Shown piece by piece: positions 20,696-55,716 of a DNA stretch of 64,000 nt. Below the pieces are notes generated by a model. The model worked only from the letters and a program-made list of their open reading frames with translations, had not been told where the DNA came from and searched no databases. Both the position numbers and the translations under genes were made by a program. Every line of letters begins with the position of its first letter. Within the stretch, counting starts at the first letter, position 1. The stretch comes from Sabellastarte sp. h YS-2021 (taxonomy: Eukaryota; Annelida; Polychaeta; Sabellida; Sabellidae), in contig OZ024936.1 in NCBI GenBank assembly GCA_964017235.1, positions 54,301,028 to 54,365,027 on the forward strand, read 5' to 3'.

Positions 20696-20785
20696 CATGT
20701 TCATAATTTACCCAGTAAGTTCCAAATTTACCCAGTCATGTTCATAATTTACCCAGTAAGTTCCTAATTTATCCAGTAAGTTCCA
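20696..20785 (+). repeat. 41-bp minisatellite with ~20-bp sub-unit
   Basis: Two 41-bp copies (20696-20736, 20737-20777) of CATGTTCATAATTTACCCAG plus AAGTTCC-type sequence, with an internal ~20-bp period (ATTTACCCAGTAAGTTCC). It abuts the left edge of the large array. Confidence 0.75.
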
Positions 20786-20792
20786 GCATTTC

Positions 20793-21446
20793 ACATATTT
20801 ACTCAGAATCACCTCAACTTTTTAGATTAATTGGAGAATAACTGATTGTGAGTTTGGTCATCAGTTGTGCCTATCATACAATTTTTGGGTTTACAAAACA
20901 TATTCAAGTGAGATTTGTTAGATCTGTAATATGTTTTTATATAAACAATGTATCATCAACATGACAGATAAACTGTAATAATTTTCAGTTGGGCATCTCC
21001 GTTCACAAAGGTTTTAACCACATTTTCTATACTTGTTGAAATTTATACACATTATTATATAAATTGTTTTAAAATTTTTCTTTCTGGAGTTTCTTCTATA
21101 ATTGTTATTACTTTAAAAACTTGGAATTGAGCCACTAAAATATATCCTGAATTGTATTTATTGCAGACATTAACTATCTCTATAATAGTTTTTGTCTACA
21201 CTTTAACTTAACAGAGGATATGAACATTCCATTGAAAGGTTTGTTTTATTCCAGATAATAGTACTCAAGTAAAACACACGTGATGGTTATTTTATGTTTC
21301 CTTTTATGTCAGAAAATGCCATATGTACCTTGTTTTAATTTCACAGGAAAATACCCCAACCTTGTTATTTGAAGAGCCACTGATTGTGAGGTTATAACAA
21401 TATTTCTGTACCAAGTTATGCATATGTTATGGTTGTTTTGTAATGT
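20793..21446 (+). repeat. Array left-edge partial unit with internal fusion
   Basis: Starts mid-monomer (ACATATTTACTCAG) and covers the first sub-repeat. At 21410/21411 it jumps from TATTTCTGTA straight to CCAAGTTATG, skipping the second and third sub-repeats that follow in all other units. It is a deletion fusion at the array boundary. Confidence 0.8.
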
Positions 21447-22185
21447 TATTTATTTATTTGGGGTTTTACAACACTTTGAACACTGTACCGGTCATTTCAC
21501 AATGGGTAGTTTTGTGGGAAGAAGAAACAGTACATACAATTGGGCAAGGTACTGTACTGTAAACTGCAACTGAATTTTTTTTTTCTTTTTTTTCCTTCAA
21601 TATACTTTTTATTCACCCTTTTTTTGCATCAGTGCTCAAAGAATCTGGGAGGGCGAGGGTGGAAAACCCTCCATCAGATTATCTTTACAAGTGGAGTGTA
21701 ATGTATAGACAATTAGAACAACATTTTTGTTGGTTTTACATACTTTTAAAAGGAAAAATAAACAACACTATTTTATCAACAGTTTTCATGCAATTGCATA
21801 ACTCCACAAGGTCTTCTGTGTGATGAAAAGATGAAGCAAAGTAGAAAAATAATGCCTATACAAAAATATCAAGCTAAATCAAATGACCAATAAGTGGTTG
21901 CCACTTATGCCAAATTTTATCAAAATGGATTTCTTCATGACATAACTTACTTAGTAACTTTTATTCTGAGAATACTTGGTGTAATCGATGAATGAATCCA
22001 TTTGAATTGAGATTTTGACATTTATTTGTAGACTCAAATATATATTTTTAGCAACAAGAAGAATTGTATTGATCGGTTGTTGATTGACTTTTAGCAACTA
22101 CAAACTTTCCTACATAAGGTAGGGGGTTTGAACCGCCGTCTTCAGAGGTGGGAGGTGAGTGTGTTACCACTGCACCACATGACCC
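21447..22185 (-). mobile_element. SINE-A copy in L unit 1, split by a 0.52-kb insertion
   Basis: The two SINE parts are on the minus strand: head 22089-22185 (A-box-like TGGTGCAGTGGTAACAC, B-box-like GGTTCAAACCC) and tail 21447-21567 (GTAAAACCCCAAATAAATAA type). The flanks TTTGTAATGT (21437-21446) and TTTGTTAATGT (22186-22196) are the target-site duplication, matching the intact orthologous insertion at 53.3 kb. The same split SINE is present in every L and S unit. Confidence 0.85.
21568..22088 (-). mobile_element. ~521-bp insertion inside the array SINE (first copy)
   Basis: This segment is absent from the SINE at 53273-53498 and present in all homogenised units. Read on the minus strand it ends in an A-rich tail before AGTTGC, and AGTTGC also lies at its other side, so it looks like a retroposed insert with a short (6-bp) duplication. 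It carries a 63-codon frame repeated in every unit (21632-21823 here). The frame's changes between copies include at least three replacements (Cys/Tyr, Gln/Arg, Leu/Phe) and about two silent ones, so constraint is not evident. Origin unknown. Confidence 0.6.
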
Positions 22186-24112
22186 TTTGTTAATGTCATG
22201 AGTAAGTGAAAACTTTTATTTCATTGATGCTGTGTGCATATTTTTAGCATATTATGTTGCATGTTTATACTAAGTGCAATATGTCATTGTATTACAGGAG
22301 TCAAAACACTATTAGTCTCTTCTCAACCTTTCAAGTTCAGCCCAAGCTCTCCAGTGAGTGATATTTCCTAAACTGAGAGACAGAGGCCAAGGATAACTAT
22401 TCATAAATTCCCTGAGGTACTTTAGCCTGTCACTGGGGATAAGACCCAATGACAAAGGGCTGTCATTTTAAATCATCACCTTATCATTTTTTCATCTGTC
22501 TGTGGGTTAGAACCCAAGTCCTCTGTGTTCCTAGAAAAGAGTTACCCATGAGACCACAGTGGAAGAGTGTATCCAATATATAAGGTAATTGTATTTGACA
22601 TATTTACTCAGAATCACCTCAACTTTTTAGTTTATTCGGTGAATCACTGATTGTGAGTTTGGTCATCAGATGTGCCTATCATACAATTTTTTGGTTTACA
22701 AGACATATTCAAGTGAGATTTGTTAGATCTGTAATATGTTTTTATATACACAATGTATCATGAACATGACAGATAAACTGTAATAATTTTCAGTTGGGCA
22801 TATCTATTCACAAAGGTTTTAACCACATTTTCTATACTTGTTGAAATTTATACACGTTATATATAAATTGTTTTAAAATTTTTCTTTCTGGAGTTTCTTC
22901 TGTGATTGTTATTATTTTAAGAACTTGTAATTGAGCCATTAAAATATGTCCTGGATTCTATCCTGAATTGTATTTATTGCAGACATTAACTATCTCTATA
23001 ATAGTTTTTGTCTACACTTTAACTTAACAGAGGATATGAACATTCCATTGAAAGATTTTTTTTATTCCAGATCATGGTATTCAAGTAACACACACGTGAT
23101 GGTTATTTTATGTTTCCTTTTATGTCAGAAAATGCCATCTGTACCTTGTTTTAATTTCACTGGAAAATACCCCAACCTTGTTATTTGAAGAGCCACTGAT
23201 TGTGAGGTTATAACAATATTTCTGTACTTGTTGATATTAATCCACATTATATTATGGAGCTTTCCTATGTTTTTTCTAGATTTCCTGTTGTAATTGTAGT
23301 TTTCCTATGCTTTTTTAAGTTGTCACTGAATTTTGTATCCTTAAATACATTTATTATTGACATAAGGTATCTGTACAGTAGTTTTTTTCTATACACTGTA
23401 ACCTTATACAGGACATGGTGAAAAGAATAGGTCCTTTGAGAGATATTTTTCAGGTTAGAAATTCACCTTCATGGCTAAGCAAATTACTTTCATATTATTA
23501 TAAGTTTTTGGTTATAATCCAAATTATCGGAACCAAGTTATGCATACATTTTGGTTATTTTATGTTTCTTTCTTTTATAATATACACATAGTGTCAGTAT
23601 TTGCTATCTGTACCTTCTTCAAATATCACAGCATTTGCCATCTGTACCTTCTTCAAATATCACAGGAATACCCCTATCTTGTTATTTGGAGATTCTTTGT
23701 GAGATTATGACAATATTTCTGTAATTGTTGATATTTATCCACATTATATTATGGGCCTTTTAAGTTGTTCTTTCTAATTTTCTAATTGTAGCTCATTTGT
23801 ATTTTTATCTTGGCACTGTGCCACTGAAATAGATATTTTTAATCCTTTTATACATTTATTACAGACATTAGGTATCTGCATTATAATTTTGTCAATACTA
23901 TAACTTAATACAGGACATAGTGGAGATGGTTGTTCCTTTGAAAAATATTTTCAGATTACAACATCTCCTTTATGGCTAAGGAAAATTTTCCCGTTATTAT
24001 AAGGTTTTGGTTATACACCAGATTATGGGGTCCAAGTTATGCATATGTTATGGTTGTTTTGTAATGTTATTTATTTATTTATTTGGGGTTTTACATCGCT
24101 TTGAACACTGTA

Positions 24113-25398
24113 CTGGAACACAGAGGACTTGGGTTCTAACCCACAGACAGATGAAAAAATGATAAGGTGATGATTTAAAATGACAGCCCTTTGTCATTGG
24201 GTCTTATCCCCAGTGACAGGCTAAAGTACCTCAGGGAATTTATGAATAGTTATCCTTGCCCTCTGTCTCTCAGTTTAGGAAATATCACTCACTGGAGAGC
24301 TTGGGCTGAACTTAAAAGTTTGAGAAGAGACTAATAGTGTTTTGACTCCTGTAATACAATGACATATTGCATTTAGTATAAACATGCAACATAATATACT
24401 AAAAATATGCACACAGCATCAATGAAATAAAAGTTTTCACTTACTCATGACATTAACAAAGGGCCATGTGGTGCAGTGGTAACACACTCGCTTCCCACCT
24501 CTGAAGACGGCGAGGTTCTCAGTGGCCTAGTGGTTAGCAAGTTTGGCATCTAATCATAGGTTGTCACCTCTGTGGGTACGAGTCCCACAAGTGGCAATTC
24601 TGAGGACCTGTCCCAATATGACCCTGGCTGTTGAACGGGACGTAAAACCCCAACTTTGACCTTTGATCTGAAGACGGCGGTTCAAACCCCCTACCTTATG
24701 TAGGAAAGTTTGTAGTTGCTAAAAGTCAATCAACAACCGATCAATACAATTCTTCTTGTTGCTAAAAATATATATTTGAGTCTACAAATAAATGTCAAAA
24801 TCTCAATTCAAATGGATTCATTCATCGATTACACCAAGTATTCTCAGAACAAAAGTTACTAAGTAAGTTATGTCATGAAGAAATCCATTTTGATAAAATT
24901 TGGCATAAGTGGCAACCACTTATTGGTCATTTGATTTAGCTTGATATTTTTGTATAGGCATTATTTTTCTACTTTGCTTCATCTTTTCATCACACAGAAG
25001 ACCTTGTGGAGTTATGCAATTGCATGAAAACTGTTGATAAAATAGTGTTGTTTATTTTTCCTTTTAAAAGTATGTAAAACCAACAAAAATGTTGTTCTAA
25101 TTGTCTATACATTACACTCCACTTGTAAAGATAATCTGATGGAGGGTTTTCCACCCTCGCCCTCCCAGATTCTTTGAGCACTGATGCAAAAAAAGGGTGA
25201 ATAAAAAGTATATTGAAGGAAAAAAAGAAAAAAAAATTCAGTTGCAGTTTACAGTACAGTACCTTGCCCAATTGTATGTACTGTTTCTTCTTCCCACAAA
25301 ACTACCCATTGTGAAATGACCGGTACAGTGTTCAAAGCGATGTAAAACCCCAAATAAATAAATAAATAACATTACAAAACAACCATAACATATGCATA
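24113..25398 (-). repeat. Inverted array segment 1
   Basis: Unit sequence runs backwards from GGAACACAGAGGAC (24115) to CATATGCATA (25398). Both joints are abrupt: ...ACTGTAC|TGGAACACAG on the left, and a ~5-bp filler before CATAAGG at 25404 on the right. The arms 24030-24112 and 25322-25398 are complementary. 24115-24520 is also complementary to 25420-25835, so the locus can fold into two nested hairpins. Confidence 0.88.
24513..24666 (+). mobile_element. SINE-B copy 1 (second tRNA-derived family)
   Basis: A 154-bp element inserted in the inverted SINE-A head, flanked by perfect 13-bp repeats TCTGAAGACGGCG (24500-24512 and 24667-24679). It has an A-box-like TGGCCTAGTGGTTAGCA and a B-box-like GGTACGAGTCCC, then CCTGGCTGTTGAACGGGACG and a GTAAAACCCCAA tail. 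The 3' part resembles the SINE-A tail. Confidence 0.87.
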
Positions 25399-25403
25399 TG
25401 TAC

Positions 25404-27347
25404 CATAAGGTAGGGGGTTTGAACCGCCGTCTTCAGAGGTGGGAAGCGAGTGTGTTACCACTGCACCACATGGCCCTTTGTTAATGTCATGAGTAAGTGA
25501 AAACTTTTATTTCATTGATGCTGTGTGCATATTTTCAGTATATTATGTTGCATGTTTATACTAAATTCAATATGTCATTGTATTACAGGAGACAAAACAC
25601 TATTAGTCTCTTCTCAAACTTTTAAGTTCAGCCCAAGCTCTCCAGTGAGTGATATTTCCTAAACTGAGAGACAGAGGGCAAGGATAACTATTCATAAATT
25701 CCCTGAGGTACTTTAGCCTGTCACTGGGGATAAGACCCAATGACAAAGGGCTGTCATTTTAAATCATCACCTTATCATTTTTTCATCTGTCTGTGGGTTA
25801 GAACCCAAGTCCTCTGTGTTCCTAGAAAAGTGTTCCCCATGAGACCACAGTGGAAGAGTGTATCCAATATATAAGGTAATTGTATTTGACATATTTACTC
25901 AGAATAACCTCAACTTTTTAGCTTATTCGGAGAATCACTGATTGTGAGTTTGGTCATCAGATGTGCCTATCATACAATTTTTTGGTTTACAAGACATATT
26001 CAAGTGAGATTTGTTAGATCTGTAATATGTTTTAATATACACAATGTATTATGAACATGACAGATAAACTTTAATAATTTTCAGTTGGGCATCTCTGTTC
26101 ACAAAGGTTTTAACCACATTTTCTATACTTGTTGAAATTTATACACATTACATATAAATTGTTTTAAAATTTTTCTTTCTGGAGTTTCTTCTGTGATTGT
26201 TATTATTTTAAGAACTTGGAATTGAGCCACTAAAATATATCCTGAATTGTATTTATTGCAGACATTAACTATCTCTATAATAGTTTTTGTCTACACTTTA
26301 ACTTAACAGAGGATATGAACATTCCATTGAAAGATTTTTTTTATTCCAGATCATGGTATTCAAGTAACACACACGTGATGGTTATTTTATGTTTCCTTTT
26401 ATGTCAGAAAATGCCATCTGTACCTTGTTTTAATTTCACTGGAAAATACCCCAACCTTGTTATTTGAAGAGCCACTGATTGTGAGGTTATAACAATATTT
26501 CTGTACTTGTTGATATTAATCCACATTATATTATGGAGCTTTCCTATGTTTTTTCTAGATTTCCTGTTGTAATTGTAGTTTTCCTATGCTTTTTTAAGTT
26601 GTCACTGAATTTTGTATCCTTAAATACATTTATTATTGACATAAGGTATCTGTACAGTAGTTTTTTTCTATACACTGTAACCTTATACAGGACATGGTGA
26701 AAAGAATAGGTCCTTTGAGAGATATTTTTCAGGTTAGAAATTCACCTTCATGGCTAAGCAAATTACTTTCATATTATTATAAGTTTTTGGTTATAATCCA
26801 AATTATCGGAACCAAGTTATGCATACATTTTGGTTATTTTATGTTTCTTTCTTTTATAATATACACATAGTGTCAGTATTTGCTATCTGTACCTTCTTCA
26901 AATATCACAGCATTTGCCATCTGTACCTTCTTCAAATATCACAGGAATACCCCTATCTTGTTATTTGGAGATTCTTTGTGAGATTATGACAATATTTCTG
27001 TAATTGTTGATATTTATCCACATTATATTATGGGCCTTTTAAGTTGTTCTTTCTAATTTTCTAATTGTAGCTCATTTGTATTTTTATCTTGGCACTGTGC
27101 CACTGAAATAGATATTTTTTAATCCTTTTACACATTTATTACAGACATTAGGTATCTGTATTATAATTTTGTCTATACTGTAACTTAATACAGGACATAG
27201 TGGAGAGGGTTGTTCCTTTGAAAAATATTTTCAGATTAGAACATCTCCTTTATGGCTAAGGAAAATTTTCCCGTTATTATAAGGTTTTGGTTATACACCA
27301 GATTATGGGGTCCAAGTTATGCATATGTTATGGTTGTTTTGTAATGT
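25404..27347 (+). repeat. Partial direct unit after inversion 1
   Basis: Resumes direct orientation inside the SINE-A head (CATAAGGTAGGGGG) and continues through spacer and all three sub-repeats. It lacks the SINE tail and the 0.52-kb insertion. Confidence 0.88.
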
Positions 27348-29971
27348 TATTTATTTATTTATTTGGGGTTTTACATCGCTTTGAACACTGTACCGGTCAT
27401 TTCACAATGGGTAGTTTTGTGGGAAGAAGAAACAGTACATACAATTGGGCAAAGTACTGTACTGTAAACTGCAACTGAATTTTTTTATTTTTTTTCCTTC
27501 AATATACTTTTTATTCACCCTTTTTTCGCATCAGTGCTAAAAGAATCTGGAAGGGCGAGGGTGGAAAACCCTCCATCAGATTATCTTTACAAGTGGAGTG
27601 TAATGTATAGACAATTAGAACAACATTTTTATTGGTTTTACATACTTTTAAAAGGAAAAATAAACAACACTATTTTATCAACAGTTTTCATGCGATTTCA
27701 TAACTCCACAAGGTCTTCTGTGTGATGAAAAGATGAAGCAAAGTAGAAAAATAATGCCTATACAAAAATATCAAGCTAAATCAAATGACCAATAAGTGGT
27801 TGCCACTTATGCCAAATTTTATCAAAATGGATTTCTTCATGACATAAGTTACTTAGTAACTTTTGTTCTGAGAATACTTGGTGTAATCGATGAATGAATC
27901 CATTTGAATTGAGATTTTGACATTTATTTATAGACTCAAATATATATTTTTAGCAACAAGAAGAATTGTATTGATCGGTTGTTGATTGACTTTTAGCAAC
28001 TACAAACTTTCCTACATAAGGTAGGGGATTTGAACCGCCGTCTTCAGAGGTGGGAAGCGAGTGTGTTACCACTGCACCACATGGCCCTTTGTTAATGTCA
28101 TGAGTAAGTGAAAACTTTTATTTCATTGATGCTGTGTGCATATTTTTAGTATATTATGTTGCATGTTTATACTAAATGCAATATGTCATTGTATTACAGG
28201 AGTCAAAACACTATTAGTCTCTTCTCAAACTTTTAAGTTCAGCCCAAGCTCTCCAGTGAGTGATATTTCCTAAACTGAGAGACAGAGGGCAAGGATAACT
28301 ATTCATAAATTCCATGAGGTACTTTAGCCTGTCACTGGGGATAAGACCCAATGACAAAGGGCTGTCATTTTAAATCATCACCTTATCATTTTTTCATCTG
28401 TCTGTGGGTTAGAACCCAAGTCATCTGTGTTCCTAGAAAAGTGTTACCCATGAGACCACAGTGGAAGAGTGTATCCAATATATAAGGTAATTGTATTTGA
28501 CATATTTACTCAGAATCACCTCAACTTTTTAGCTTATTCGGAGAATCACTGATTGTGAGTTTGGTCATCAGATGTGCCTATCATACAATTTTTTGGTTTA
28601 CAAGACATATTCAAGTGAGATTTGTTAGATCTGTAATATGTTTTTATATACACAATGTATCATGAACATGACAGATAAACTGTAATAATTTGCAGTTGGG
28701 CATCTCCGTTCACAAAGGTTTTAACCACATTTTCTATACTTGTTGAAATTTATACACGTTATATATAAATTGTTTTAATATTTTTCTTTCTGGAGTTTCT
28801 TCTGTAATTGTTATTACTTTAAGAACTTGTAATTGAGCCATTAAAATATATCCTGGATTCTATCCTGAATTGTATTTATTGCAGACATTAACTATCTGTA
28901 TAATAGTTTTTGTCTACACTTTAACTTAACGGAGGATATGAACATTCCATTGAAAGGTTTTTTTTCTTCCAGATCATGGTATTGAAGTAAAACACACGTG
29001 ATGGTTATTTTATGTTTCCTTTTATGTCAGAAAATGCCATCTGTACCTTGTTTGAATTTCACTGGAAAATACCCCAACCTTGTTATTTGAAGAGCCACTG
29101 ATTGTGAGGTTATAACAATATTTCTGTACTTGTTGATATTAATCCACATTATATTATGGAGCTTTCCTATGTTTTTTCTAGATTTCCTGTTGTAATTGTA
29201 GTTTTCCTATGCTTTTTCAAGTTGTCACTGAATTTTGTATCCTTAAATACATTTATTATTGACATAAGGTATCTGTACAGTAGTTTCTTTTCTATACACT
29301 GTAACCTTATACAGGACATGGTGAAAAGAATAGGTCCTTTGAGAGATATTTTTCAGGTTAGAAATTCACCTTCATGGCTAAGCAAATTACTTTCATTTTA
29401 TTATAAGTTTTTGGTTATAATCCAAATTATCGGAACCAAGTTATGCATACATTTTGGTTATTTTATGTTTTTTTCTTTTATAATATACACATAGTGTCAC
29501 TATTTGCTATCTGTACCTTCTTCAAATATCACAGCATTTGCCATCTGTACCTTCTTCAAATATCACAGGAATACCCCTATCTTGTTATTTGGAGATTCTT
29601 TGTGAGATTATGACAATATTTCTGTAATTGTTGATATTTATCCACATTATATTATGGGCCTTTTAAGTTGTTCTTTCTAATTTTCTAATTGTAGCTCATT
29701 TGTATTTTTATCTTGGCACTGTGCCACTGAAATAGATATTTTTTAATCCTTTTACACATTTATTACAGACATTAGGTATCTGTATTATAATATTGTCTAT
29801 ACTGTAACTTAATACAGGACATAGTGGAGAGGGTTGTTCCTTTGAAAAATATTTTCAGATTAGAACATCTCCTTTATGGCTAAGGAAAATTTTCCCGTTA
29901 TTATAAGGTTTTGGTTATACACCAGATTATGGGGTCCAAGTTATGCATATGTTATGGTTGTTTTGTAATGT
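27348..29971 (+). repeat. L unit (Lc subtype), copy in first 5.9-kb block
   Basis: Full 2,624-bp unit with the GCCATCTG form in sub-repeat 1. It also has a 34-bp internal direct duplication (CTGTACCTTCTTCAAATATC twice near 29510-29570), shared by all L units. Confidence 0.9.
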
Positions 29972-30016
29972 TATTTATTTATTTATTTGGGGTTTTACAT
30001 CGCTTTGAACACTGTA

Positions 30017-31302
30017 CTGGAACACAGAGGACTTGGGTTCTAACCCACAGACAGATGAAAAAATGATAAGGTGATGATTTAAAATGACAGCCCTTTGTCA
30101 TTGGGTCTTATCCCCAGTGACAGGCTAAAGTACCTCAGGGAATTTATGAATAGTTATCCTTGCCCTCTGTCTCTCAGTTTAGGAAATATCACTCACTGGA
30201 GAGCTTGGGCTGAACTTAAAAGTTTGAGAAGAGACTAATAGTGTTTTGACTCCTGTAATACAATGACATATTGCATTTAGTATAAACATGCAACATAATA
30301 TACTAAAAATATGCACACAGCATCAATGAAATAAAAGTTTTCACTTACTCATGACATTAACAAAGGGCCATGTGGTGCAGTGGTAACACACTCGCTTCCC
30401 ACCTCTGAAGACGGCGAGGTTCTCAGTGGCCTAGTGGTTAGCAAGTTTGGCATCTAATCATAGGTTGTCACCTCTGTGGGTACGAGTCCCACAAGTGGCA
30501 ATTCTGAGGACCTGTCCCAATATGACCCTGGCTGTTGAACGGGACGTAAAACCCCAACTTTGACCTTTGATCTGAAGACGGCGGTTCAAACCCCCTACCT
30601 TATGTAGGAAAGTTTGTAGTTGCTAAAAGTCAATCAACAACCGATCAATACAATTCTTCTTGTTGCTAAAAATATATATTTGAGTCTACAAATAAATGTC
30701 AAAATCTCAATTCAAATGGATTCATTCATCGATTACACCAAGTATTCTCAGAACAAAAGTTACTAAGTAAGTTATGTCATGAAGAAATCCATTTTGATAA
30801 AATTTGGCATAAGTGGCAACCACTTATTGGTCATTTGATTTAGCTTGATATTTTTGTATAGGCATTATTTTTCTACTTTGCTTCATCTTTTCATCACACA
30901 GAAGACCTTGTGGAGTTATGCAATTGCATGAAAACTGTTGATAAAATAGTGTTGTTTATTTTTCCTTTTAAAAGTATGTAAAACCAACAAAAATGTTGTT
31001 CTAATTGTCTATACATTACACTCCACTTGTAAAGATAATCTGATGGAGGGTTTTCCACCCTCGCCCTCCCAGATTCTTTGAGCACTGATGCAAAAAAAGG
31101 GTGAATAAAAAGTATATTGAAGGAAAAAAAGAAAAAAAAATTCAGTTGCAGTTTACAGTACAGTACCTTGCCCAATTGTATGTACTGTTTCTTCTTCCCA
31201 CAAAACTACCCATTGTGAAATGACCGGTACAGTGTTCAAAGCGATGTAAAACCCCAAATAAATAAATAAATAACATTACAAAACAACCATAACATATGCA
31301 TA
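30017..31302 (-). repeat. Inverted array segment 2
   Basis: Exact counterpart of 24113-25398 in the second 5.9-kb block, with the same joints and filler. Confidence 0.88.
30417..30570 (+). mobile_element. SINE-B copy 2
   Basis: The same SINE-B insertion as at 24513, carried along by the 5,904-bp duplication (same flanking repeats), not an independent insertion. Confidence 0.87.
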
Positions 31303-31307
31303 TGTAC

Positions 31308-33251
31308 CATAAGGTAGGGGGTTTGAACCGCCGTCTTCAGAGGTGGGAAGCGAGTGTGTTACCACTGCACCACATGGCCCTTTGTTAATGTCATGAGTAA
31401 GTGAAAACTTTTATTTCATTGATGCTGTGTGCATATTTTCAGTATATTATGTTGCATGTTTATACTAAATTCAATATGTCATTGTATTACAGGAGACAAA
31501 ACACTATTAGTCTCTTCTCAAACTTTTAAGTTCAGCCCAAGCTCTCCAGTGAGTGATATTTCCTAAACTGAGAGACAGAGGGCAAGGATAACTATTCATA
31601 AATTCCCTGAGGTACTTTAGCCTGTCACTGGGGATAAGACCCAATGACAAAGGGCTGTCATTTTAAATCATCACCTTATCATTTTTTCATCTGTCTGTGG
31701 GTTAGAACCCAAGTCCTCTGTGTTCCTAGAAAAGTGTTCCCCATGAGACCACAGTGGAAGAGTGTATCCAATATATAAGGTAATTGTATTTGACATATTT
31801 ACTCAGAATAACCTCAACTTTTTAGCTTATTCGGAGAATCACTGATTGTGAGTTTGGTCATCAGATGTGCCTATCATACAATTTTTTGGTTTACAAGACA
31901 TATTCAAGTGAGATTTGTTAGATCTGTAATATGTTTTAATATACACAATGTATTATGAACATGACAGATAAACTTTAATAATTTTCAGTTGGGCATCTCT
32001 GTTCACAAAGGTTTTAACCACATTTTCTATACTTGTTGAAATTTATACACATTACATATAAATTGTTTTAAAATTTTTCTTTCTGGAGTTTCTTCTGTGA
32101 TTGTTATTATTTTAAGAACTTGGAATTGAGCCACTAAAATATATCCTGAATTGTATTTATTGCAGACATTAACTATCTCTATAATAGTTTTTGTCTACAC
32201 TTTAACTTAACAGAGGATATGAACATTCCATTGAAAGATTTTTTTTATTCCAGATCATGGTATTCAAGTAACACACACGTGATGGTTATTTTATGTTTCC
32301 TTTTATGTCAGAAAATGCCATCTGTACCTTGTTTTAATTTCACTGGAAAATACCCCAACCTTGTTATTTGAAGAGCCACTGATTGTGAGGTTATAACAAT
32401 ATTTCTGTACTTGTTGATATTAATCCACATTATATTATGGAGCTTTCCTATGTTTTTTCTAGATTTCCTGTTGTAATTGTAGTTTTCCTATGCTTTTTTA
32501 AGTTGTCACTGAATTTTGTATCCTTAAATACATTTATTATTGACATAAGGTATCTGTACAGTAGTTTTTTTCTATACACTGTAACCTTATACAGGACATG
32601 GTGAAAAGAATAGGTCCTTTGAGAGATATTTTTCAGGTTAGAAATTCACCTTCATGGCTAAGCAAATTACTTTCATATTATTATAAGTTTTTGGTTATAA
32701 TCCAAATTATCGGAACCAAGTTATGCATACATTTTGGTTATTTTATGTTTCTTTCTTTTATAATATACACATAGTGTCAGTATTTGCTATCTGTACCTTC
32801 TTCAAATATCACAGCATTTGCCATCTGTACCTTCTTCAAATATCACAGGAATACCCCTATCTTGTTATTTGGAGATTCTTTGTGAGATTATGACAATATT
32901 TCTGTAATTGTTGATATTTATCCACATTATATTATGGGCCTTTTAAGTTGTTCTTTCTAATTTTCTAATTGTAGCTCATTTGTATTTTTATCTTGGCACT
33001 GTGCCACTGAAATAGATATTTTTTAATCCTTTTACACATTTATTACAGACATTAGGTATCTGTATTATAATTTTGTCTATACTGTAACTTAATACAGGAC
33101 ATAGTGGAGAGGGTTGTTCCTTTGAAAAATATTTTCAGATTAGAACATCTCCTTTATGGCTAAGGAAAATTTTCCCGTTATTATAAGGTTTTGGTTATAC
33201 ACCAGATTATGGGGTCCAAGTTATGCATATGTTATGGTTGTTTTGTAATGT
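31308..33251 (+). repeat. Partial direct unit after inversion 2
   Basis: Counterpart of 25404-27347 in the second block. Confidence 0.88.
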
Positions 33252-35875: not shown

Positions 35876-36906
35876 TATTTATTTATTTATTTGGGGTTTT
35901 ACATCGCTTTGAACACTGTACCGGTCATTTCACAATGGGTAGTTTTGTGGGAAGAAGAAACAGTACATACAATTGGGCAAAGTACTGTACTGTAAACTGC
36001 AACTGAATTTTTTTATTTTTTTTCCTTCAATATACTTTTTATTCACCCTTTTTTCGCATCAGTGCTAAAAGAATCTGGAAGGGCGAGGGTGGAAAATTAT
36101 CTTTACAAGTGGAGTGTAATGTATAGACAATTAGAACAACATTTTTATTGGTTTTACATACTTTTAAAAGGAAAAATAAACAACACTATTTTATCAACAG
36201 TTTTCATGCGATTTCATAACTCCACAAGGTCTTCTGTGTGATGAAAAGATGAAGCAAAGTAGAAAAATAATGCCTATACAAAAATATTAAGCTAAATCAA
36301 ATGACCAATAAGTGGTTGCCACTTATGCCAAATTTTATCAAAATGGATTTCTTCATGACATAAGTTACTTAGTAACTTTTGTTCTGAGAATACTTGGTGT
36401 AATCGATGAATGAATCCATTTGAATTGAGATTTTGACATTTATTTATAGACTCAAATATATATTTTTAGCAACAAGAAGAATTGTATTGATCGGTTGTTG
36501 ATTGACTTTTAGCAACTACAAACTTTCCTACATAAGGTAGGGGGTTTGAACCGCCGTCTTCAGAGGTGGGAAGCAAGTGTGTTACCACTGCACCACATGG
36601 CCCTTTGTTAATGTCATGAGTAAGTGAAAACTTTTATTTCATTGATGCTGTGTGCATATTTTTAATATATTATGTTGCATGTTTTGCATGTAATTTATTA
36701 CAGACATTAGGTATCTGTATTATAATTTTGTCAATACTGTAACTTAATACAGGACACAGTGGAGAGGGTTGTTCCTTTGAAAAATATTTTCAGATTAAAA
36801 CGTTTCCTTTATGGCTAAGGAAAATTTTCCCGTTATTATAAGGTTTTGGTTATACACCAGATTATGGGGTCCAAGTTATGCATATGTTATGGTTGTTTTG
36901 TAATGT
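35876..36906 (+). repeat. S unit 1 (internally deleted monomer)
   Basis: A 1,031-bp unit with the split SINE but lacking about 1.59 kb. GCATGTTT is joined, through filler TGCATGTAAT, to TTATTACAGACATTAGG, removing the spacer and sub-repeats 1 and 2. It also lacks 12 bp in the insertion (GGAAAATTATC at about 36092 versus GGAAAACCCTCCATCAG). The 12-bp loss keeps the recurrent small frame open. Confidence 0.9.
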
Positions 36907-42151: not shown

Positions 42152-43182
42152 TATTTATTTATTTATTTGGGGTTTTACATCGCTTTGAACACTGTACCGG
42201 TCATTTCACAATGGGTAGTTTTGTGGGAAGAAGAAACAGTACATACAATTGGGCAAAGTACTGTACTGTAAACTGCAACTGAATTTTTTTATTTTTTTTC
42301 CTTCAATATACTTTTTATTCACCCTTTTTTCGCATCAGTGCTAAAAGAATCTGGAAGGGCGAGGGTGGAAAATTATCTTTACAAGTGGAGTGTAATGTAT
42401 AGACAATTAGAACAACATTTTTATTGGTTTTACATACTTTTAAAAGGAAAAATAAACAACACTATTTTATCAACAGTTTTCATGCGATTTCATAACTCCA
42501 CAAGGTCTTCTGTGTGATGAAAAGATGAAGCAAAGTAGAAAAATAATGCCTATACAAAAATATTAAGCTAAATCAAATGACCAATAAGTGGTTGCCACTT
42601 ATGCCAAATTTTATCAAAATGGATTTCTTCATGACATAAGTTACTTAGTAACTTTTGTTCTGAGAATACTTGGTGTAATCGATGAATGAATCCATTTGAA
42701 TTGAGATTTTGACATTTATTTATAGACTCAAATATATATTTTTAGCAACAAGAAGAATTGTATTGATCGGTTGTTGATTGACTTTTAGCAACTACAAACT
42801 TTCCTACATAAGGTAGGGGGTTTGAACCGCCGTCTTCAGAGGTGGGAAGCAAGTGTGTTACCACTGCACCACATGGCCCTTTGTTAATGTCATGAGTAAG
42901 TGAAAACTTTTATTTCATTGATGCTGTGTGCATATTTTTAATATATTATGTTGCATGTTTTGCATGTAATTTATTACAGACATTAGGTATCTGTATTATA
43001 ATTTTGTCAATACTGTAACTTAATACAGGACACAGTGGAGAGGGTTGTTCCTTTGAAAAATATTTTCAGATTAAAACGTTTCCTTTATGGCTAAGGAAAA
43101 TTTTCCCGTTATTATAAGGTTTTGGTTATACACCAGATTATGGGGTCCAAGTTATGCATATGTTATGGTTGTTTTGTAATGT
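42152..43182 (+). repeat. S unit 2
   Basis: Same internal deletion, filler and 12-bp loss as S unit 1. Confidence 0.9.
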
Positions 43183-45803
43183 TATTTATTTATTTATTTG
43201 GGGTTTTACATCGTTTGAACACTGTACCGGTCATTTCACAATGGGTAGTTTTGTGGGAAGAAGAAACAGTACATACAATTGGGCAAGGCACTGTACTGTA
43301 AACTGCAACTGAATTTTTTTATTTTTTTTCCTTCAATATACTTTTTATTCACCCTTTTTTCGCATCAGTGCTAAAAGAATCTGGAAGGGCGAGGGTGGAA
43401 AACCCTCCATCAGATTATCTTTACAAGTGGAGTGTAATGTATAGACAATTAGAACAACATTTTTATTGGTTTTACATACTTTTAAAAGGAAAAATAAACA
43501 ACACTATTTTATCAACAGTTTTCATGCGATTTCATAACTCCACAAGGTCTTCTGTGTGATGAAAAGATGAAACAAAGTAGAAAAATAATGCCTATACAAA
43601 AATATCAAGCTAAATCAAATGACCAATAAGTGGTTGCCACTTATGCCAAATTTTATCAAAATGGATTTCTTCATGACATAACTTACTTAGTAACTTTTGT
43701 TCTGAGAATACTTGGTGTAATCGATGAATGAATCCATTTGAATTGAGATTTTGACATTTATTTATAGACTCAAATATATATTTTTAGCAACAAGAAGAAT
43801 TGTATTGATCGGTTGTTGATTGACTTTTAGCAACTACAAACTTTCCTACATAAGGTAGGGGGTTTGAACCGCCGTCTTCAGAGGTGGGAAGCAAGTGTGT
43901 TACCACTGCACCACATGGCCCTTTGTTATTGTCATGAGTAAGTGAAAACTTTTATTTCATTGATGCTGTGTGCATATTTTTAGTATATTATGTTGCATGT
44001 TTATACTAAATGCAATATGTCATTGTATTACAGGAGTCAAAACACTATTAGTCTCTTCTCAAACTTTTAAGTTCAGCCCAAGCTCTCCAGTGAGTGATAT
44101 TTCCTAAACTGAGAGACAGAGGGCAAGGATAACTATTCATAAATTCCCTGAGGTACTTTAGCCTGTCACTGGGGATAAGACCCAATGACAAAGGGCTGTC
44201 ATTTTAAATCATCACCTTATCATTTTTTCATCTGTCTGTGGGTTAGAACCCAAGTCCTCTGTGTTCCTAGAAAAGTGTTACCCATGAGACCACAGTGGAA
44301 GAGTGTATCCAATATATAAGGTAATTGTATTTGACATATTTACTCAGAATCACCTCAACTTTTTAGCTTATTCGGGGAATCACTGATTGTGAGTTTGGTC
44401 ATCAGATGTGCCTATCATACAATTTTTTGGTTTACAAGACACATTCAAGTGAGATTTGTTAGATCTGTAATATGTTTTTATATACACAATGTATCATGAA
44501 CATGACAGATAAACTGTAATAATTTGCAGTTGGGCATCTCCGTTCACAAAGGTTTTAACCACATTTTCTATACTTGTTGAAATTTATACACGTTATATAT
44601 AAATTGTTTTAATATTTTTCTTTCTGGAGTTTCTTCTGTAATTGTTATTATTTTAAGAACTTGTAATTGAGCCATTAAAATATATCCTGGATTCTATCCT
44701 GAATTGTATTTATTGCAAACATTAGCTATCTGTATAATAGTTTTTGTCTGCACTTTAACTTAACAGAGGATATGAACATTCCATTGAAAGATTTTTTTTA
44801 TTCCAGATCATCGTATTCAAGTAAAACACACGTGATGGTTGTTTTATGTTTCCTTTTATGTCAGAAAATGCCTCTGTACCTTGTTTTAATTTCACTGGAA
44901 AATACCCCAACCTTGTTATTTGAAGAGCCACTGATTGTGAGGTTATAACAATATTTCTGTACTTGTTGATATTAATCCACATTATATTATGGAGCTTTCC
45001 TATGTTTTTTCTAGATTTCCTGTTGTAATTGTAGTCTTCCTATGCTTTTTTAAGTTGTCACTGAATTTTGTATCCTTAAATACATTTATTATTGACATAA
45101 GGTATCTGTACAGTAGTTTTTTTCTATACACTGTAACCTTATACAGGACATGGTGAAAAGAATAGGTCCTTTGAGAGATATTTTTCAGGTTAGAAATTCA
45201 CCTTCATGGCTAAGCAAATTACTTTCATATTATTATAAGTTTTTGGTTATAATCCAAATTATCGGAACCAAGTTATGCATACATTTTGGTTATTTTATGT
45301 TTTTTTCTTTTATAATATACACATAGTGTCAGTATTTGCTATCTGTACCTTCTTCAAATATCACAGCATTTGCCATCTGTACCTTCTTCAAATATCACAG
45401 GAATACCCCTATCTTGTTATTTGGAGATTCTTTGTGAGATTATGACAATATTTCTGTAATTGTTGATATTTATCCACATTATATTATGGGCCTTTTAAGT
45501 TGTTCTTTCTAATTTTCTAATTGTAGCTCATTTGTATTTTTATCTTGGCACTGTGCCACTGAAATAGATATTTTTTAATCCTTTTACACATTTATTACAG
45601 ACATTAGGTATCTGTATTATAATATTGTCTATACTGTAACTTAATACAGGACATAGTGGAGAGGGTTGTTCCTTTGAAAAATATTTTCAGATTAGAACAT
45701 CTCCTTTATGGCTAAGGAAAATTTTCCCGTTATTATAAGGTTTTGGTTATACACCAGATTATGGGGTCCAAGTTATGCATATGTTATGGTTGTTTTGTAA
45801 TGT
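43183..45803 (+). repeat. La unit 2
   Basis: Carries both La markers. Followed directly by an S unit, so its Lb partner is missing here. Confidence 0.9.
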
Positions 45804-46834
45804 TATTTATTTATTTATTTGGGGTTTTACATCGCTTTGAACACTGTACCGGTCATTTCACAATGGGTAGTTTTGTGGGAAGAAGAAACAGTACATACAA
45901 TTGGGCAAAGTACTGTACTGTAAACTGCAACTGAATTTTTTTATTTTTTTTCCTTCAATATACTTTTTATTCACCCTTTTTTCGCATCAGTGCTAAAAGA
46001 ATCTGGAAGGGCGAGGGTGGAAAATTATCTTTACAAGTGGAGTGTAATGTATAGACAATTAGAACAACATTTTTATTGGTTTTACATACTTTTAAAAGGA
46101 AAAATAAACAACACTATTTTATCAACAGTTTTCATGCGATTTCATAACTCCACAAGGTCTTCTGTGTGATGAAAAGATGAAGCAAAGTAGAAAAATAATG
46201 CCTATACAAAAATATTAAGCTAAATCAAATGACCAATAAGTGGTTGCCACTTATGCCAAATTTTATCAAAATGGATTTCTTCATGACATAAGTTACTTAG
46301 TAACTTTTGTTCTGAGAATACTTGGTGTAATCGATGAATGAATCCATTTGAATTGAGATTTTGACATTTATTTATAGACTCAAATATATATTTTTAGCAA
46401 CAAGAAGAATTGTATTGATCGGTTGTTGATTGACTTTTAGCAACTACAAACTTTCCTACATAAGGTAGGGGGTTTGAACCGCCGTCTTCAGAGGTGGGAA
46501 GCAAGTGTGTTACCACTGCACCACATGGCCCTTTGTTAATGTCATGAGTAAGTGAAAACTTTTATTTCATTGATGCTGTGTGCATATTTTTAATATATTA
46601 TGTTGCATGTTTTGCATGTAATTTATTACAGACATTAGGTATCTGTATTATAATTTTGTCAATACTGTAACTTAATACAGGACACAGTGGAGAGGGTTGT
46701 TCCTTTGAAAAATATTTTCAGATTAAAACGTTTCCTTTATGGCTAAGGAAAATTTTCCCGTTATTATAAGGTTTTGGTTATACACCAGATTATGGGGTCC
46801 AAGTTATGCATATGTTATGGTTGTTTTGTAATGT
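45804..46834 (+). repeat. S unit 3
   Basis: Same structure as the other S units. Confidence 0.9.
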
Positions 46835-49455
46835 TATTTATTTATTTATTTGGGGTTTTACATCGTTTGAACACTGTACCGGTCATTTCACAATGGGTAG
46901 TTTTGTGGGAAGAAGAAACAGTACATACAATTGGGCAAGGCACTGTACTGTAAACTGCAACTGAATTTTTTTATTTTTTTTCCTTCAATATACTTTTTAT
47001 TCACCCTTTTTTCGCATCAGTGCTAAAAGAATCTGGAAGGGCGAGGGTGGAAAACCCTCCATCAGATTATCTTTACAAGTGGAGTGTAATGTATAGACAA
47101 TTAGAACAACATTTTTATTGGTTTTACATACTTTTAAAAGGAAAAATAAACAACACTATTTTATCAACAGTTTTCATGCGATTTCATAACTCCACAAGGT
47201 CTTCTGTGTGATGAAAAGATGAAACAAAGTAGAAAAATAATGCCTATACAAAAATATCAAGCTAAATCAAATGACCAATAAGTGGTTGCCACTTATGCCA
47301 AATTTTATCAAAATGGATTTCTTCATGACATAACTTACTTAGTAACTTTTGTTCTGAGAATACTTGGTGTAATCGATGAATGAATCCATTTGAATTGAGA
47401 TTTTGACATTTATTTATAGACTCAAATATATATTTTTAGCAACAAGAAGAATTGTATTGATCGGTTGTTGATTGACTTTTAGCAACTACAAACTTTCCTA
47501 CATAAGGTAGGGGGTTTGAACCGCCGTCTTCAGAGGTGGGAAGCAAGTGTGTTACCACTGCACCACATGGCCCTTTGTTATTGTCATGAGTAAGTGAAAA
47601 CTTTTATTTCATTGATGCTGTGTGCATATTTTTAGTATATTATGTTGCATGTTTATACTAAATGCAATATGTCATTGTATTACAGGAGTCAAAACACTAT
47701 TAGTCTCTTCTCAAACTTTTAAGTTCAGCCCAAGCTCTCCAGTGAGTGATATTTCCTAAACTGAGAGACAGAGGGCAAGGATAACTATTCATAAATTCCC
47801 TGAGGTACTTTAGCCTGTCACTGGGGATAAGACCCAATGACAAAGGGCTGTCATTTTAAATCATCACCTTATCATTTTTTCATCTGTCTGTGGGTTAGAA
47901 CCCAAGTCCTCTGTGTTCCTAGAAAAGTGTTACCCATGAGACCACAGTGGAAGAGTGTATCCAATATATAAGGTAATTGTATTTGACATATTTACTCAGA
48001 ATCACCTCAACTTTTTAGCTTATTCGGGGAATCACTGATTGTGAGTTTGGTCATCAGATGTGCCTATCATACAATTTTTTGGTTTACAAGACACATTCAA
48101 GTGAGATTTGTTAGATCTGTAATATGTTTTTATATACACAATGTATCATGAACATGACAGATAAACTGTAATAATTTGCAGTTGGGCATCTCCGTTCACA
48201 AAGGTTTTAACCACATTTTCTATACTTGTTGAAATTTATACACGTTATATATAAATTGTTTTAATATTTTTCTTTCTGGAGTTTCTTCTGTAATTGTTAT
48301 TATTTTAAGAACTTGTAATTGAGCCATTAAAATATATCCTGGATTCTATCCTGAATTGTATTTATTGCAAACATTAGCTATCTGTATAATAGTTTTTGTC
48401 TGCACTTTAACTTAACAGAGGATATGAACATTCCATTGAAAGATTTTTTTTATTCCAGATCATCGTATTCAAGTAAAACACACGTGATGGTTGTTTTATG
48501 TTTCCTTTTATGTCAGAAAATGCCTCTGTACCTTGTTTTAATTTCACTGGAAAATACCCCAACCTTGTTATTTGAAGAGCCACTGATTGTGAGGTTATAA
48601 CAATATTTCTGTACTTGTTGATATTAATCCACATTATATTATGGAGCTTTCCTATGTTTTTTCTAGATTTCCTGTTGTAATTGTAGTCTTCCTATGCTTT
48701 TTTAAGTTGTCACTGAATTTTGTATCCTTAAATACATTTATTATTGACATAAGGTATCTGTACAGTAGTTTTTTTCTATACACTGTAACCTTATACAGGA
48801 CATGGTGAAAAGAATAGGTCCTTTGAGAGATATTTTTCAGGTTAGAAATTCACCTTCATGGCTAAGCAAATTACTTTCATATTATTATAAGTTTTTGGTT
48901 ATAATCCAAATTATCGGAACCAAGTTATGCATACATTTTGGTTATTTTATGTTTTTTTCTTTTATAATATACACATAGTGTCAGTATTTGCTATCTGTAC
49001 CTTCTTCAAATATCACAGCATTTGCCATCTGTACCTTCTTCAAATATCACAGGAATACCCCTATCTTGTTATTTGGAGATTCTTTGTGAGATTATGACAA
49101 TATTTCTGTAATTGTTGATATTTATCCACATTATATTATGGGCCTTTTAAGTTGTTCTTTCTAATTTTCTAATTGTAGCTCATTTGTATTTTTATCTTGG
49201 CACTGTGCCACTGAAATAGATATTTTTTAATCCTTTTACACATTTATTACAGACATTAGGTATCTGTATTATAATATTGTCTATACTGTAACTTAATACA
49301 GGACATAGTGGAGAGGGTTGTTCCTTTGAAAAATATTTTCAGATTAGAACATCTCCTTTATGGCTAAGGAAAATTTTCCCGTTATTATAAGGTTTTGGTT
49401 ATACACCAGATTATGGGGTCCAAGTTATGCATATGTTATGGTTGTTTTGTAATGT
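46835..49455 (+). repeat. La unit 3
   Basis: Carries both La markers and precedes an Lb unit, restoring the S-La-Lb order. Confidence 0.9.
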
Positions 49456-52020
49456 TATTTATTTATTTATTTGGGGTTTTACATCACTTTGAACACTGTA
49501 CCGGTCATTTCACAATGGGTAGTTTTGTGGGAAGAAGAAACAGTACATACAATTGGGCAAAGTACTGTACTGTAAACTGCAACTGAATTTTTTTATTTTT
49601 TTTCCTTCAATATACTTTTTATTCACCCTTTTTTCGCATCAGTGCTAAAAGAATCTGGAAGGGCGAGGGTGGAAAACCCTCCATCAGATTATCTTTACAA
49701 GTGGAGTGTAATGTATAGACAATTAGAACAACATTTTTATTGGTTTTACATACTTTTAAAAGGAAAAATAAACAACACTATTTTATCAACAGTTTTCGTG
49801 CGATTTCATAACTCCACAAGGTCTTCTGTGTGATGAAAAGATGAAGCAAAGTAGAAAAATAATGCCTATACAAAAATATCAAGCTAAATCAAATGACCAA
49901 TAAGTGGTTGCCACTTATGCCAAATTTTATCAAAATGGATTTCTTCATGACATAACTTACTTAGTAACTTTTGTTCTGAGAATACTTGGTGTAATCGATG
50001 AATGAATCCATTTGAATTGAGATTTTGACATTTATTTATAGACTCAAATATATATTTTCAGCAACAAGAAGAATTGTATTGATCGGTTGTTGATTGACTT
50101 TTAGCAACTACAAACTTTCCTACATAAGGTAGGGGGTTTGAACCGCCGTCTTCAGAGGTGGGAAGCAAGTGTGTTACCACTGCACCACATGGCCCTTTGT
50201 TATTGTCATGAGTAAGTGAAAACTTTTATTTCATTGATGCTGTGTGCATATTTTTAGTATATTATGTTGCATGTTTATACTAAATGCAATATGTCATTGT
50301 ATTACAGGAGTCAAAACACTATTAGTCTCTTCTCAAACTTTTAAGTTCAGCCCAAGCTCTCTAGTGAGTGATATTTCCTAAACTGAGAGACAGAGGGCAA
50401 GGATAACTATTCATAAATTCCCTGAGGTACTTTAGCCTGTCACTGGGGATAAGACCCAATGACAAAGGGCTGTCATTTTAAATCATCACCTTATCATTTT
50501 TTCATCTGTCTGTGGGTTAGAACCCAAGTCCTCTGTGTTCCTAGAAAAGTGTTACCCATGAGACCACAGTGGAAGAGTGTATCCAATATATAAGGTAATT
50601 GTATTTGACATATTTACTCAGAATCACCTCAACTTTTTAGCTTATTCGGGGAATCACTGATTGTGAGTTTGGTCATCAGATGTGCCTATCATACAATTTT
50701 TTGGTTTACAAGACACATTCAAGTGAGATTTGTTAGATCTGTAATATGTTTTTATATACACAATGTATCATGAACATGACAGATAAACTGTAATAATTTG
50801 CAGTTGGGCATCTCCGTTCACAAAGGTTTTAACCACATTTTCTATACTTGTTGAAATTTATACACGTTATATATAAATTGTTTTAATATTTTTCTTTCTG
50901 GAGTTTCTTCTGTAATTGTTATTACTTTAAGAACTTGTAATTGAGCCATTAAAATATATCCTGGATTCTATCCTGAATTGTATTTATTGCAAACATTAGC
51001 TATCTGTATAATAGTTTTTGTCTGCACTTTAACTTAACAGAGGATATGAACATTCCATTGAAAGATTTTTTTTATTCCAGATCATCGTATTCAAGTAAAA
51101 CACACGTGATGGTTGTTTTATGTTTCCTTTTATGTCAGAAAATTCCATCTGTACCTTGTTTTAATTTCACTGGAAAATACCCCAACCTTGTTATTTGAAG
51201 AGCCACTGATTGTGAGGTTATAACAATATTTCTGTACTTGTTGATATTAATCCACATTATATTATGGAGCTTTCCTATGTTTTTTCTAGATTTCCTGTTG
51301 TAATTGTAGTCTTCCTATGCTTTTTTAAGTTGTCACTGAATTTTGTATCCTTAAATACATTTATTATTGACATAAGGTATCTGTACAGTAGTTTTTTTCT
51401 ATACACTGTAACCTTATACAGGACATGGTGAAAAGAATAGGTCCTTTGAGAGATATTTTTCAGGTTAGAAATTCACCTTCATGGCTAAGCAAATTACTTT
51501 CATATTATTATAAGTTTTTGGTTATAATCCAAATTATCGGAACCAAGTTATGCATACATTTTGGTTATTTTATGTTTTTTTCTTTTATAATATACACATA
51601 GTGTCAGTATTTGCTATCTGTACCTTCTTCAAATATCACAGCATTTGCCATCTGTACCTTCTTCAAATATCACAGGAATACCCCTATCTTGTTATTTGGA
51701 GATTCTTTGTGAGATTATGACAATATTTCTGTAATTGTTGATATTTATCCACATTATATTATGGGCCTTTTAAGTTGTTCTTTCTAATTTTCTAATTGTA
51801 GCTCATTTGTATTTTTATCTTGGCACTGTGCCACTGAAATAGATATTTTTTAATCCTTTTATACATTTATTACAGACATTAGGTATCTGTATTATAATTT
51901 TGTCTATACTGTAACTTAATACAGGACATAGTGGAGAGGGTTGTTCCTTTGAAAAATATTTTCAGATTAGAACATCTCCTTTATGGCTAAGGAAAATTTT
52001 CCCGTTATTATAAGGTTTTG
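49456..52020 (+). repeat. Lb unit 2, truncated at right edge of the homogenised array
   Basis: Carries Lb markers. Near 52020 it breaks at TTATAAGGTTTTG and continues as ATACACAATGTATCATGAAC, a mid-monomer position, losing the last few tens of bases. Confidence 0.88.
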
Positions 52021-53660
52021 ATACACAATGTATCATGAACATGACAGATAAACTGTAATAATTTGCAGTTGGGCATCTATGTTCACAAAGGTTTTAACCA
52101 CATTTTCTATACTTGTTAAAATTTATACACGTTATATATAAATTGGTTTAATATTTTTCTTTCTGGAGTTTCTTCTGTAATTGTTATTACTTTAAGAACT
52201 TAGAATTGAGCCATTAAAATATATCCTGGATTCTATTCTGAATTGTATTTATTGCAGACATTAACTATCTCTATAATAGTTTTTGTCTACACTTTAACTT
52301 AACAGAGGATATGAACATTCCATTGAAAGATTTGTTTTATTCCAGATGATGGTATTCAAGTAAAACACATGTGATGGTTATTTTATGTTTCCTTTTATGT
52401 CAGAAAATGCCATCTGTACCTTGTTTTAATTTCACAGGAAAATACCCCAGCCTTGTTATTTGAAGAGCCACTGATTGTGAGGTTATAACAATGTTTCTGT
52501 ACTTGTTGATATTTATCCACATTATATTATGGAGCTTTCCTATGTTTTTTCTAGATTTCCTGTTGTAATTGTGGTTTTCCTATGCTTTTTTAAGTTGTCA
52601 CTGAATTTTGTATCCTTAAATACATTTATTATTGACATAAGGTATCTATACAGTAGTTTTTTTCTGCACTGTAACCTTATACAGGACATGGTGAAAAATA
52701 TTGGTAAAAACATTGGTCCTTTGAGAGATATTTTGCAGGTTAGAAATTCTCCTTTATGGCTAAGCAAATCATTTTCAAATTATTATAAGTTTTTTTATAT
52801 TCCAAATCATGGGGGACCAAGTTATACATATGTTTTCGTTATTTTATGTTTCCTTCTTTTATAATGTACACTTAGTGTCAGTATTTGCCATCTATCTGTA
52901 CCTTCTTCAAATATCACAGGAATACCTCTATCTTGTTGTTTGGAGATTCACTGATTGTGAGATTATGATAACATTTCTGTAATTGTTGATATTTATCCTT
53001 TCCTTTATATTCTTTCTGTTCCACTGAAATAGACCATTTTTAAATCCTTAAATACATTTATTACTAAGATTAGGTATCTGTATAACAATTTTGTCTATAC
53101 TGTAGCATAATACAAAGGACTTGGTACAGAGGGTTGTTCCTTTGACAAATATTTTCAGGTTAGAACATCTCCTTTATAGCTAAGGAAAATTTTCCCATTA
53201 TTATAAGGTTTTGGTTATATACCAGATTATGGGGTCCAAGTTATGAATATGTTACGGTTATTTTGTTAATGTTATTTATTTGGGGTTTTACATATCTTTC
53301 AACACTCTACTGGTCATATCAGAACAGGTAGTTTTGTAGGCAGAGGAAACCAGTACATACATCTGGGCAGGGTTCTGTATATTATAAACTGCTGGACCAT
53401 CATTTAGCAACTGCAAACTTTCCCACATAATGTAGGGGGTTTAAACCGCCGTTCTCAGATCTGGGAGGCAAGTGTGTTACCACTGCACCACGTGGCCCTT
53501 TGTTAATGTCATTAGTAAGTGATAAGTTTTTTTCATTGATGATGTGTGCATATTGTTAGTATATTATGATGCATATTTATACTGAGTGCAATATGTCATT
53601 GTATTACAGGACTCAAAATACCATTTGTCCCTTATCAATCCTATTGTAGATTTCACAGTG
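52021..53660 (+). repeat. Diverged right-edge unit with pre-insertion SINE
   Basis: Mid-monomer start, then sub-repeats 1-3 (GACATTAAC at 52258, GACATAAGG near 52634, and AAGATTAGG near 53065), all clearly more diverged than the central units. A local duplication GGTAAAAACATTGGT-type lies near 52697. Then follow the SINE without the 0.52-kb insertion, and the TATTACAGGA spacer end near 53607. Confidence 0.88.
53273..53498 (-). mobile_element. SINE-A copy lacking the insertion (empty-site reference)
   Basis: An uninterrupted 226-bp SINE-A at the same site in the monomer, flanked by TTTGTTAATGT on both sides (53262-53272, 53499-53509). Its centre (ATAAACTGCTGGACCATCAT then TTAGCAACTGC) is where other units carry the 0.52-kb insertion. 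Confidence 0.88.
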
Positions 53661-55704: not shown

Positions 55705-55716
55705 CCTTCCTTATAT

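Follow-up and report, generated by a model that had tools for sequence, protein, structure and literature searches.

A probable single-locus, intergenic megasatellite with a composite unit in Sabellastarte

The 64-kb window analyzed here (the whole stretch of DNA under study, located 54.3 Mb into a contig of 99.7 Mb; the genome comprises 1.786 Gb in 647 contigs) contains a tandem array that is, with good confidence, an intergenic megasatellite confined to a single locus and built of composite units, in which a tandem core would have come first, SINEs and a retroelement would then have been added, and the modified unit would have been spread by exchange. Self-BLAST of the window confirms that the array is real and places it at 20,788 to 53,640, against 20,793 to 53,660 in a preliminary description made from the sequence alone. 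In a full unit, a core built of tandem arms is followed by SINE-1, an antisense SINE that a poly(A) retroelement interrupts, and by a fragment of a second antisense SINE, SINE-P. The preliminary description, in which the unit was built around a SINE, was right about the presence of a SINE and incomplete as to the second SINE, the retroelement, and the tandem-arm core. Features are collected in Table 1.

TABLE 1 Features of the array and its flanking genes, in positions of the 64-kb window
Feature	Position	Strand	Remarks
Trypsin-type serine protease, last trypsin-domain exon	1351-1536	+	flanking gene
5' edge unit	20788-22592	+	about 0.8 kb of core missing, junction at 21411
Unit 1	22593-25883	+	3,291 bp, with inverted block
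First inverted block	24103-25398	-	SINE/retroelement portion of the unit in inverted orientation
SINE-2	24513-24667	+	young, inserted in inverted block; 12-bp target-site duplications at 24501-24512 and 24668-24679
Unit 2	25884-28494	+	2,611 bp, reference unit of the analysis
Palindrome-family arms of unit 2	26629-26839, 27135-27339 (full); 26252-26360 (third, partial)	+	
SINE-1, split	27351-28087	-	antisense; tail 27351-27472, tRNA-like head 27995-28087 (tRNA likeness by eye)
Retroelement	27480-27992	-	513 bp, dispersed, 5'-truncated, with poly(A), inside SINE-1
SINE-P	28140-28468	-	second antisense tRNA-type SINE, partial
Unit 3	28495-31787	+	3,293 bp, with inverted block
Second inverted block	30007-31302	-	no mismatch to the first (5,904-bp shift)
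Unit 4	31788-34398	+	2,611 bp
Unit 5	34399-38053	+	3,655 bp, includes 1,031-bp short unit 35663-36693
Unit 6	38054-40675	+	2,622 bp
Unit 7	40676-44328	+	3,653 bp, with short unit 41939-42969
Unit 8	44329-47980	+	3,652 bp, with short unit 45591-46621
Unit 9	47981-50602	+	2,622 bp
Unit 10	50603-52020	+	partial, deletion junction at about 52020
3' edge unit	52021-53640	+	about 85% identical, SINE-1 unsplit (53269-53500)
RIO kinase 3-like exons	62299-62478, 63407-63628	+	flanking gene

A locus-specific array between two genes

The preliminary description put the array between two ordinary gene loci, and an exon of a trypsin-type serine protease and exons of a RIO kinase 3-like gene were indeed found on its two sides. 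The LDL-A, SRCR, and trypsin domains encoded upstream (stretch L041) probably belong to the same protease gene. A genome search with the core (25,889 to 27,370) as the query, with very common words skipped and all 36 candidates scored, gave 58 matches, 18 of them in the array, including every match that spans most of the core; the remaining 40 span only query positions 1,245 to 1,482. Within the reach of this search, the full-length core is confined to one site of the genome, so the array is a locus-specific megasatellite rather than a genome-wide satellite. Hence, the word satellite of the preliminary description is not supported in its genome-wide sense, and classical satellite DNA, abundant and present in many arrays, is rejected as a class, since the core search finds one array.

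Other repeats occur near the array and in its flanks. A 20-bp minisatellite at 20696-20783 ends a few bases ahead of the 5' border, and a second, degenerate tandem repeat (68 to 75% alike) lies directly 3' of the array at 53635-54640. Free copies of the SINE-1 family are found just 3' of the array (54053-54286 and 55711-55934), and four copies of a 139-bp tandem repeat stand near the RIO kinase gene (61098-61664). On the protease side, a non-LTR-type retrotransposon remnant in several frames occupies 8316-11330, where one of five tested open reading frames (ORFs) matches reverse transcriptase.

Steps, units, and higher-order duplications

The landmark TTTATTACAGACATTAGG, with which the full list of steps was made, marks the starts of the last core arm, with a variant spelling in the last, diverged copy. 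Its successive steps are 3280, 2624, 3280, 2624, 1031, 2622, 2623, 1031, 2621, 1031, 2621, 2623, and 1191 bp, that is, 2,621 to 2,624 bp in 7 of the 13, 1,031 bp in 3 of the 13, 3,280 bp in two, and 1,191 bp in the last. The 2,621- to 2,624-bp and 1,031-bp steps, 10 of the 13, had been reported from the letters alone, while the two 3,280-bp steps and the last step had been missed. Cores start at 20794, 22599, 25890, 28501, 31794, 34405, 38060, 40682, 44335, 47987, and 50609. The units are longer than about 2 kb and stand head to tail, as in mega- or macrosatellites, with the two inverted blocks as the exception, and the transposable element (TE) pieces recur once per unit, as in megasatellites, except that the retroelement is missing from the 3' edge unit.

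In ten core copies, complete or nearly so, identity to the query unit is 97 to 100%; the 5' edge copy is 95% identical over 618 bp and the 3' edge copy 85%. Repetition is nested, from sub-repeats of about 0.5 kb (74%) through the 2.6-kb units (97 to 100%) to higher-order duplications of 3.65, 5.9, and 9.9 kb (99.9 to 100%). Shifted by 5,904 bp, the array matches itself without any mismatch from 23,960 to about 30,000 (about 6 kb); shifts of 3,652 and 9,927 bp give 3 mismatches in 4,823 and 6 in 5,066, respectively. Each shift is a sum of whole steps (3,280 + 2,624 = 5,904; 2,621 + 1,031 = 3,652; 2,623 + 1,031 + 2,621 + 1,031 + 2,621 = 9,927), as in-register unequal exchange would give. The homogenized core, the diverged edges, and the higher-order organization of the preliminary description are thereby confirmed, and its suggestion of growth by unequal exchange fits these recent duplications.

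Anatomy of the composite unit

The core of about 1.45 kb is organized in sub-repeats that measure about 0.5 kb and are 74% identical. Within these lie three arms, all in direct order, and only part of the first can be recognized. Next to the core, SINE-1 belongs to a family with 3,466 first-look candidates in the genome, of which 40 were scored and 39 lie elsewhere at 81 to 84% identity. The retroelement that splits it has 6,220 first-look candidates; among the 39 scored, which omit the array's own copies and are an incomplete sample, as for abundant elements generally, one is 90% identical and 38 are at 81 to 84%. Its 3' end has an AATAAA word followed by poly(A), and the genome copies share sequence past its other end, indicating that the copy here is 5'-truncated. 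No clean target-site duplication was found around it; a candidate read by eye agrees at 6 of 7 bases, with about 16 bp beside it missing. SINE-P has 2,114 candidates, with 27 of the 40 scored lying elsewhere at 73 to 75%, and its tRNA-like head, visible in an alignment with five genome copies, carries what we take to be box motifs.

Inverted blocks and short units

Both 3,280-bp steps contain an inverted block of about 1.3 kb with non-homologous ends (junctions read by eye). These blocks need a second, non-homologous process besides unequal exchange. Each carries a SINE-2 with its 12-bp target-site duplication, and these 12 bp are single and unfilled at 13 further sites within the array. A genome search with SINE-2 gave 41 matches (40 scored of 1,465 candidates), two of them in the array, 38 others at 93 to 99% identity, and one 50-bp piece; SINE-2 is a young family. 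At the joint of the 1,031-bp short units, an 8-bp TATTACAG is common to both parents and is accompanied by a few filler bases (by eye), which fits microhomology joining.

Order of events

The 3' edge unit carries the core and SINE-1 without the retroelement and is the most diverged unit of the array (85%). Its SINE-1 can be aligned in one piece with the 39 copies scored at other genomic sites (81 to 84%); the other full units have SINE-1 in two halves, separated by about 0.5 kb. We take the edge unit to represent a stage that preceded the retroelement insertion. In principle, replacement rather than age could explain why the retroelement is missing, but the 85% identity argues for age. The simplest order, by parsimony rather than from a dated tree, is therefore that the tandem came first, the insertion followed, and the modified unit then spread.

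Under this scenario, a tandem core would have formed first, and SINEs, then the retroelement, would have entered single units. The modified unit may have spread via unequal exchange or replication slippage between units, and the later higher-order duplications may have arisen likewise. Microhomology or template-switch joining would account for both the inverted blocks and the short units of 1,031 bp, and the insertion of the young SINE-2 into an inverted block would predate the last 5.9-kb duplication.

A sibling palindrome family at 12 other loci

An imperfect palindrome of about 425 bp, one arm of which matches the arms of the core, occurs at 12 other loci on 7 contigs (L029 to L040), with at least two clusters within a few Mb on each of contigs C5, C8, and C14. 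Three sibling-palindrome queries (40/42, 40/42, and 38/38 candidates scored) recovered these loci and no others (12/12, 12/12, and 11/12, the last missing C14:33.65 Mb). A genome scan for the arm-end pattern with up to 3 mismatches gave 44 hits, of which 13 belong to the array and 31 fall inside the 12 loci or no more than 200 bases away, against 2 hits for the reversed control; more diverged arms would escape this pattern. All 37 of 37 array arms lie on one strand, while the siblings mostly have opposed pairs.

Of 75 arms, 53 were placed in a tree (22 arms from the window were left out). The tree splits in two (98/98), and the split separates the two arms of every one of the 18 hairpins represented by both, indicating that the two-armed palindrome existed before the family spread. 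On the A side, the six arms included from the array form one clade. The mean identities of the array arms to A and B are about one point apart, with B favored for the middle arm and its edge copy, and since the identities are nearly equal, the assignment to the A side is weak.

Local duplication around the palindrome was seen in 8 of the 12 siblings (9 of 12 with L037) compared to 3 of 23 control stretches (Fisher p 0.0005 for 9/12 and 0.002 for 8/12). The controls, 8 retroelement loci, the window flanks, and 10 kb beyond each end, were stretches at hand rather than random ones, and the siblings came from similarity searches, which favor multi-copy loci; the contrast is thus only suggestive of a tendency of palindrome loci to be locally duplicated. 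A tentative and rather doubtful extension is that all 13 loci go back to one ancient two-armed (A/B) palindrome that repeatedly seeded local duplication wherever it lay, and that the array, with its arms in one orientation, escaped into a 33-kb megasatellite. If true, palindromes would start megasatellites, and loss of the opposite arm would permit long, stable arrays.

A reading of the siblings as MITEs was rejected. No target-site duplications were seen by eye in the 10 hairpins printed, the family is not mostly dispersed as single copies (31 non-array termini in 12 clusters), and the flanks are partly shared between sibling loci. Among sibling ORFs, one of six matched Pfam, a reverse transcriptase in L029, and in a further set beside the siblings 2 of 10 had Pfam matches, both below the cut-offs. 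In L029 (C14:45.18-45.19 Mb), tandem units about 3.8 kb long and 91% identical carry several palindromes and reverse-transcriptase-like ORFs. At L037, an unrelated minisatellite (2648-3940), tandemly repeated at about 146 bp, lies beside a solitary arm.

Alternative explanations

In a TE graveyard model, all TE pieces would have been joined at one locus before the finished composite unit was tandemized. The unit does hold degraded pieces of several elements, as that model (PMC12628747) leads one to expect. However, the retroelement is absent from the 3' edge unit, which has the core and SINE-1 in common with the others, and the core is itself built of older tandem arms, indicating that tandem structure preceded the last insertion and making a finished unit at the outset improbable; for the two older SINEs, SINE-1 and SINE-P, the graveyard model may still apply. 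The assembly raises another doubt, namely, that some or all of the higher-order duplications are false. Zero mismatches over about 6 kb at the 5,904-bp shift are how a false duplication would look, and both the copy number and the existence of this exact duplication rest on one assembly. Nevertheless, most other unit pairs differ by 1 to 3% and the edges by 5 to 15%, the duplication lengths are sums of unit steps, and the window contains no N bases, so we regard an artifact as unlikely and slightly less credible than the graveyard model. Insertion into an existing tandem followed by spread is the reading that we prefer.

Most likely, the array has no selected function, since the tests made gave no sign of coding, of an RNA family, or of stem pairing. 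Tandem protein-coding or repeated-exon genes in such an array would have precedent, as large-unit arrays are often gene-bearing (53 of 96; PMC2588610). Here, the four array ORFs tested have no Pfam match, the five other array ORFs of at least 90 codons are copies or near copies of these, and the longest, of 128 codons, are not open in all units, which leaves this explanation scarcely credible. A functional hairpin-RNA or siRNA locus, with arms deriving from the long-hairpin family, is nearly as hard to sustain and can be called very improbable. One sibling hairpin folds at -188 kcal/mol (z = -18), a value that counts little because any palindrome folds strongly, and over 22 sibling hairpins apposed G-U exceeds A-C (142 versus 98, binomial p 0.005). 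This excess is confined to five related L029 hairpins (43 versus 10), with 99 versus 88 in the other 17. Moreover, compensatory arm pairing was not found in 18 sibling hairpins from 9 loci, where identity between a hairpin's own arms (0.664) hardly differs from that across loci (0.656) and is reached by 91 of 400 shuffles. The tree of arms, also used as a test, does not support a hairpin-RNA function either. The array arms, being all on one strand, form no such hairpin. A search at Rfam gathering thresholds gave no match in the window or the 12 sibling loci, and no tRNA was found. An intergenic megasatellite without selected function thus remains our preferred view of this locus.

Comparison with known repeats and significance

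No published description of this array was found in the open-licence literature, which claims little. As a kind of DNA the array is known, since human TE-bearing megasatellites are close precedents; it is a new example of that kind with an unusually readable history. The origin of composite satellite monomers is described as an open question, for which tandemized TE graveyards have been proposed (PMC12628747). Stages seem to be kept side by side in the array, from the pre-retroelement edge unit through later units to the units with SINE-2 and their neighbors with unfilled sites, so that insertion into a tandem with subsequent spread can be tested against graveyard first within one 33-kb stretch. 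The 12 sibling loci provide a separate test of palindromes, described as recombinogenic (PMC7999016), as starters of local amplification.

The TE-bearing megasatellites of the human genome (Warburton et al. 2008, PMC2588610), whose growth is presumed to occur by unequal crossing over, resemble the present array in being locus specific and gene free, with units of >2 kb, an interspersed-TE pattern, and an inversion in at least one array. They differ in lineage and sequence, and, as far as that account goes, a pre-insertion-like edge unit and a palindrome-related core are features of the Sabellastarte array. DXZ4 is likewise a single-locus tandem array, with 3.0-kb units that are similar within the array (PMC3081327). 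Unlike the present array, it has 12 to 100 units, is uninterrupted, and contains no TEs recognized by RepeatMasker (PMC2588610). Chromatin and CTCF roles are reported for DXZ4, and no such role is known for the present array. Composite satellite monomers of the graveyard type are also made of successive stretches from several TEs (PMC12628747); here, at least the last TE piece seems later than the tandem, and the array sits at a single locus between genes.

Similarities are found in other invertebrates. PcH-sat of Patella caerulea is a tandem repeat with a SINE segment, but it has a 179-bp monomer, makes up about 10% of the genome, and is pericentromeric on several chromosomes (PMC11121367). 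The macro-dyad satellites of Tribolium madens share an inverted organization with the present repeats; they are megabase sized and putatively (peri)centromeric (PMC13081366), compared to only two inverted blocks in 33 kb here.
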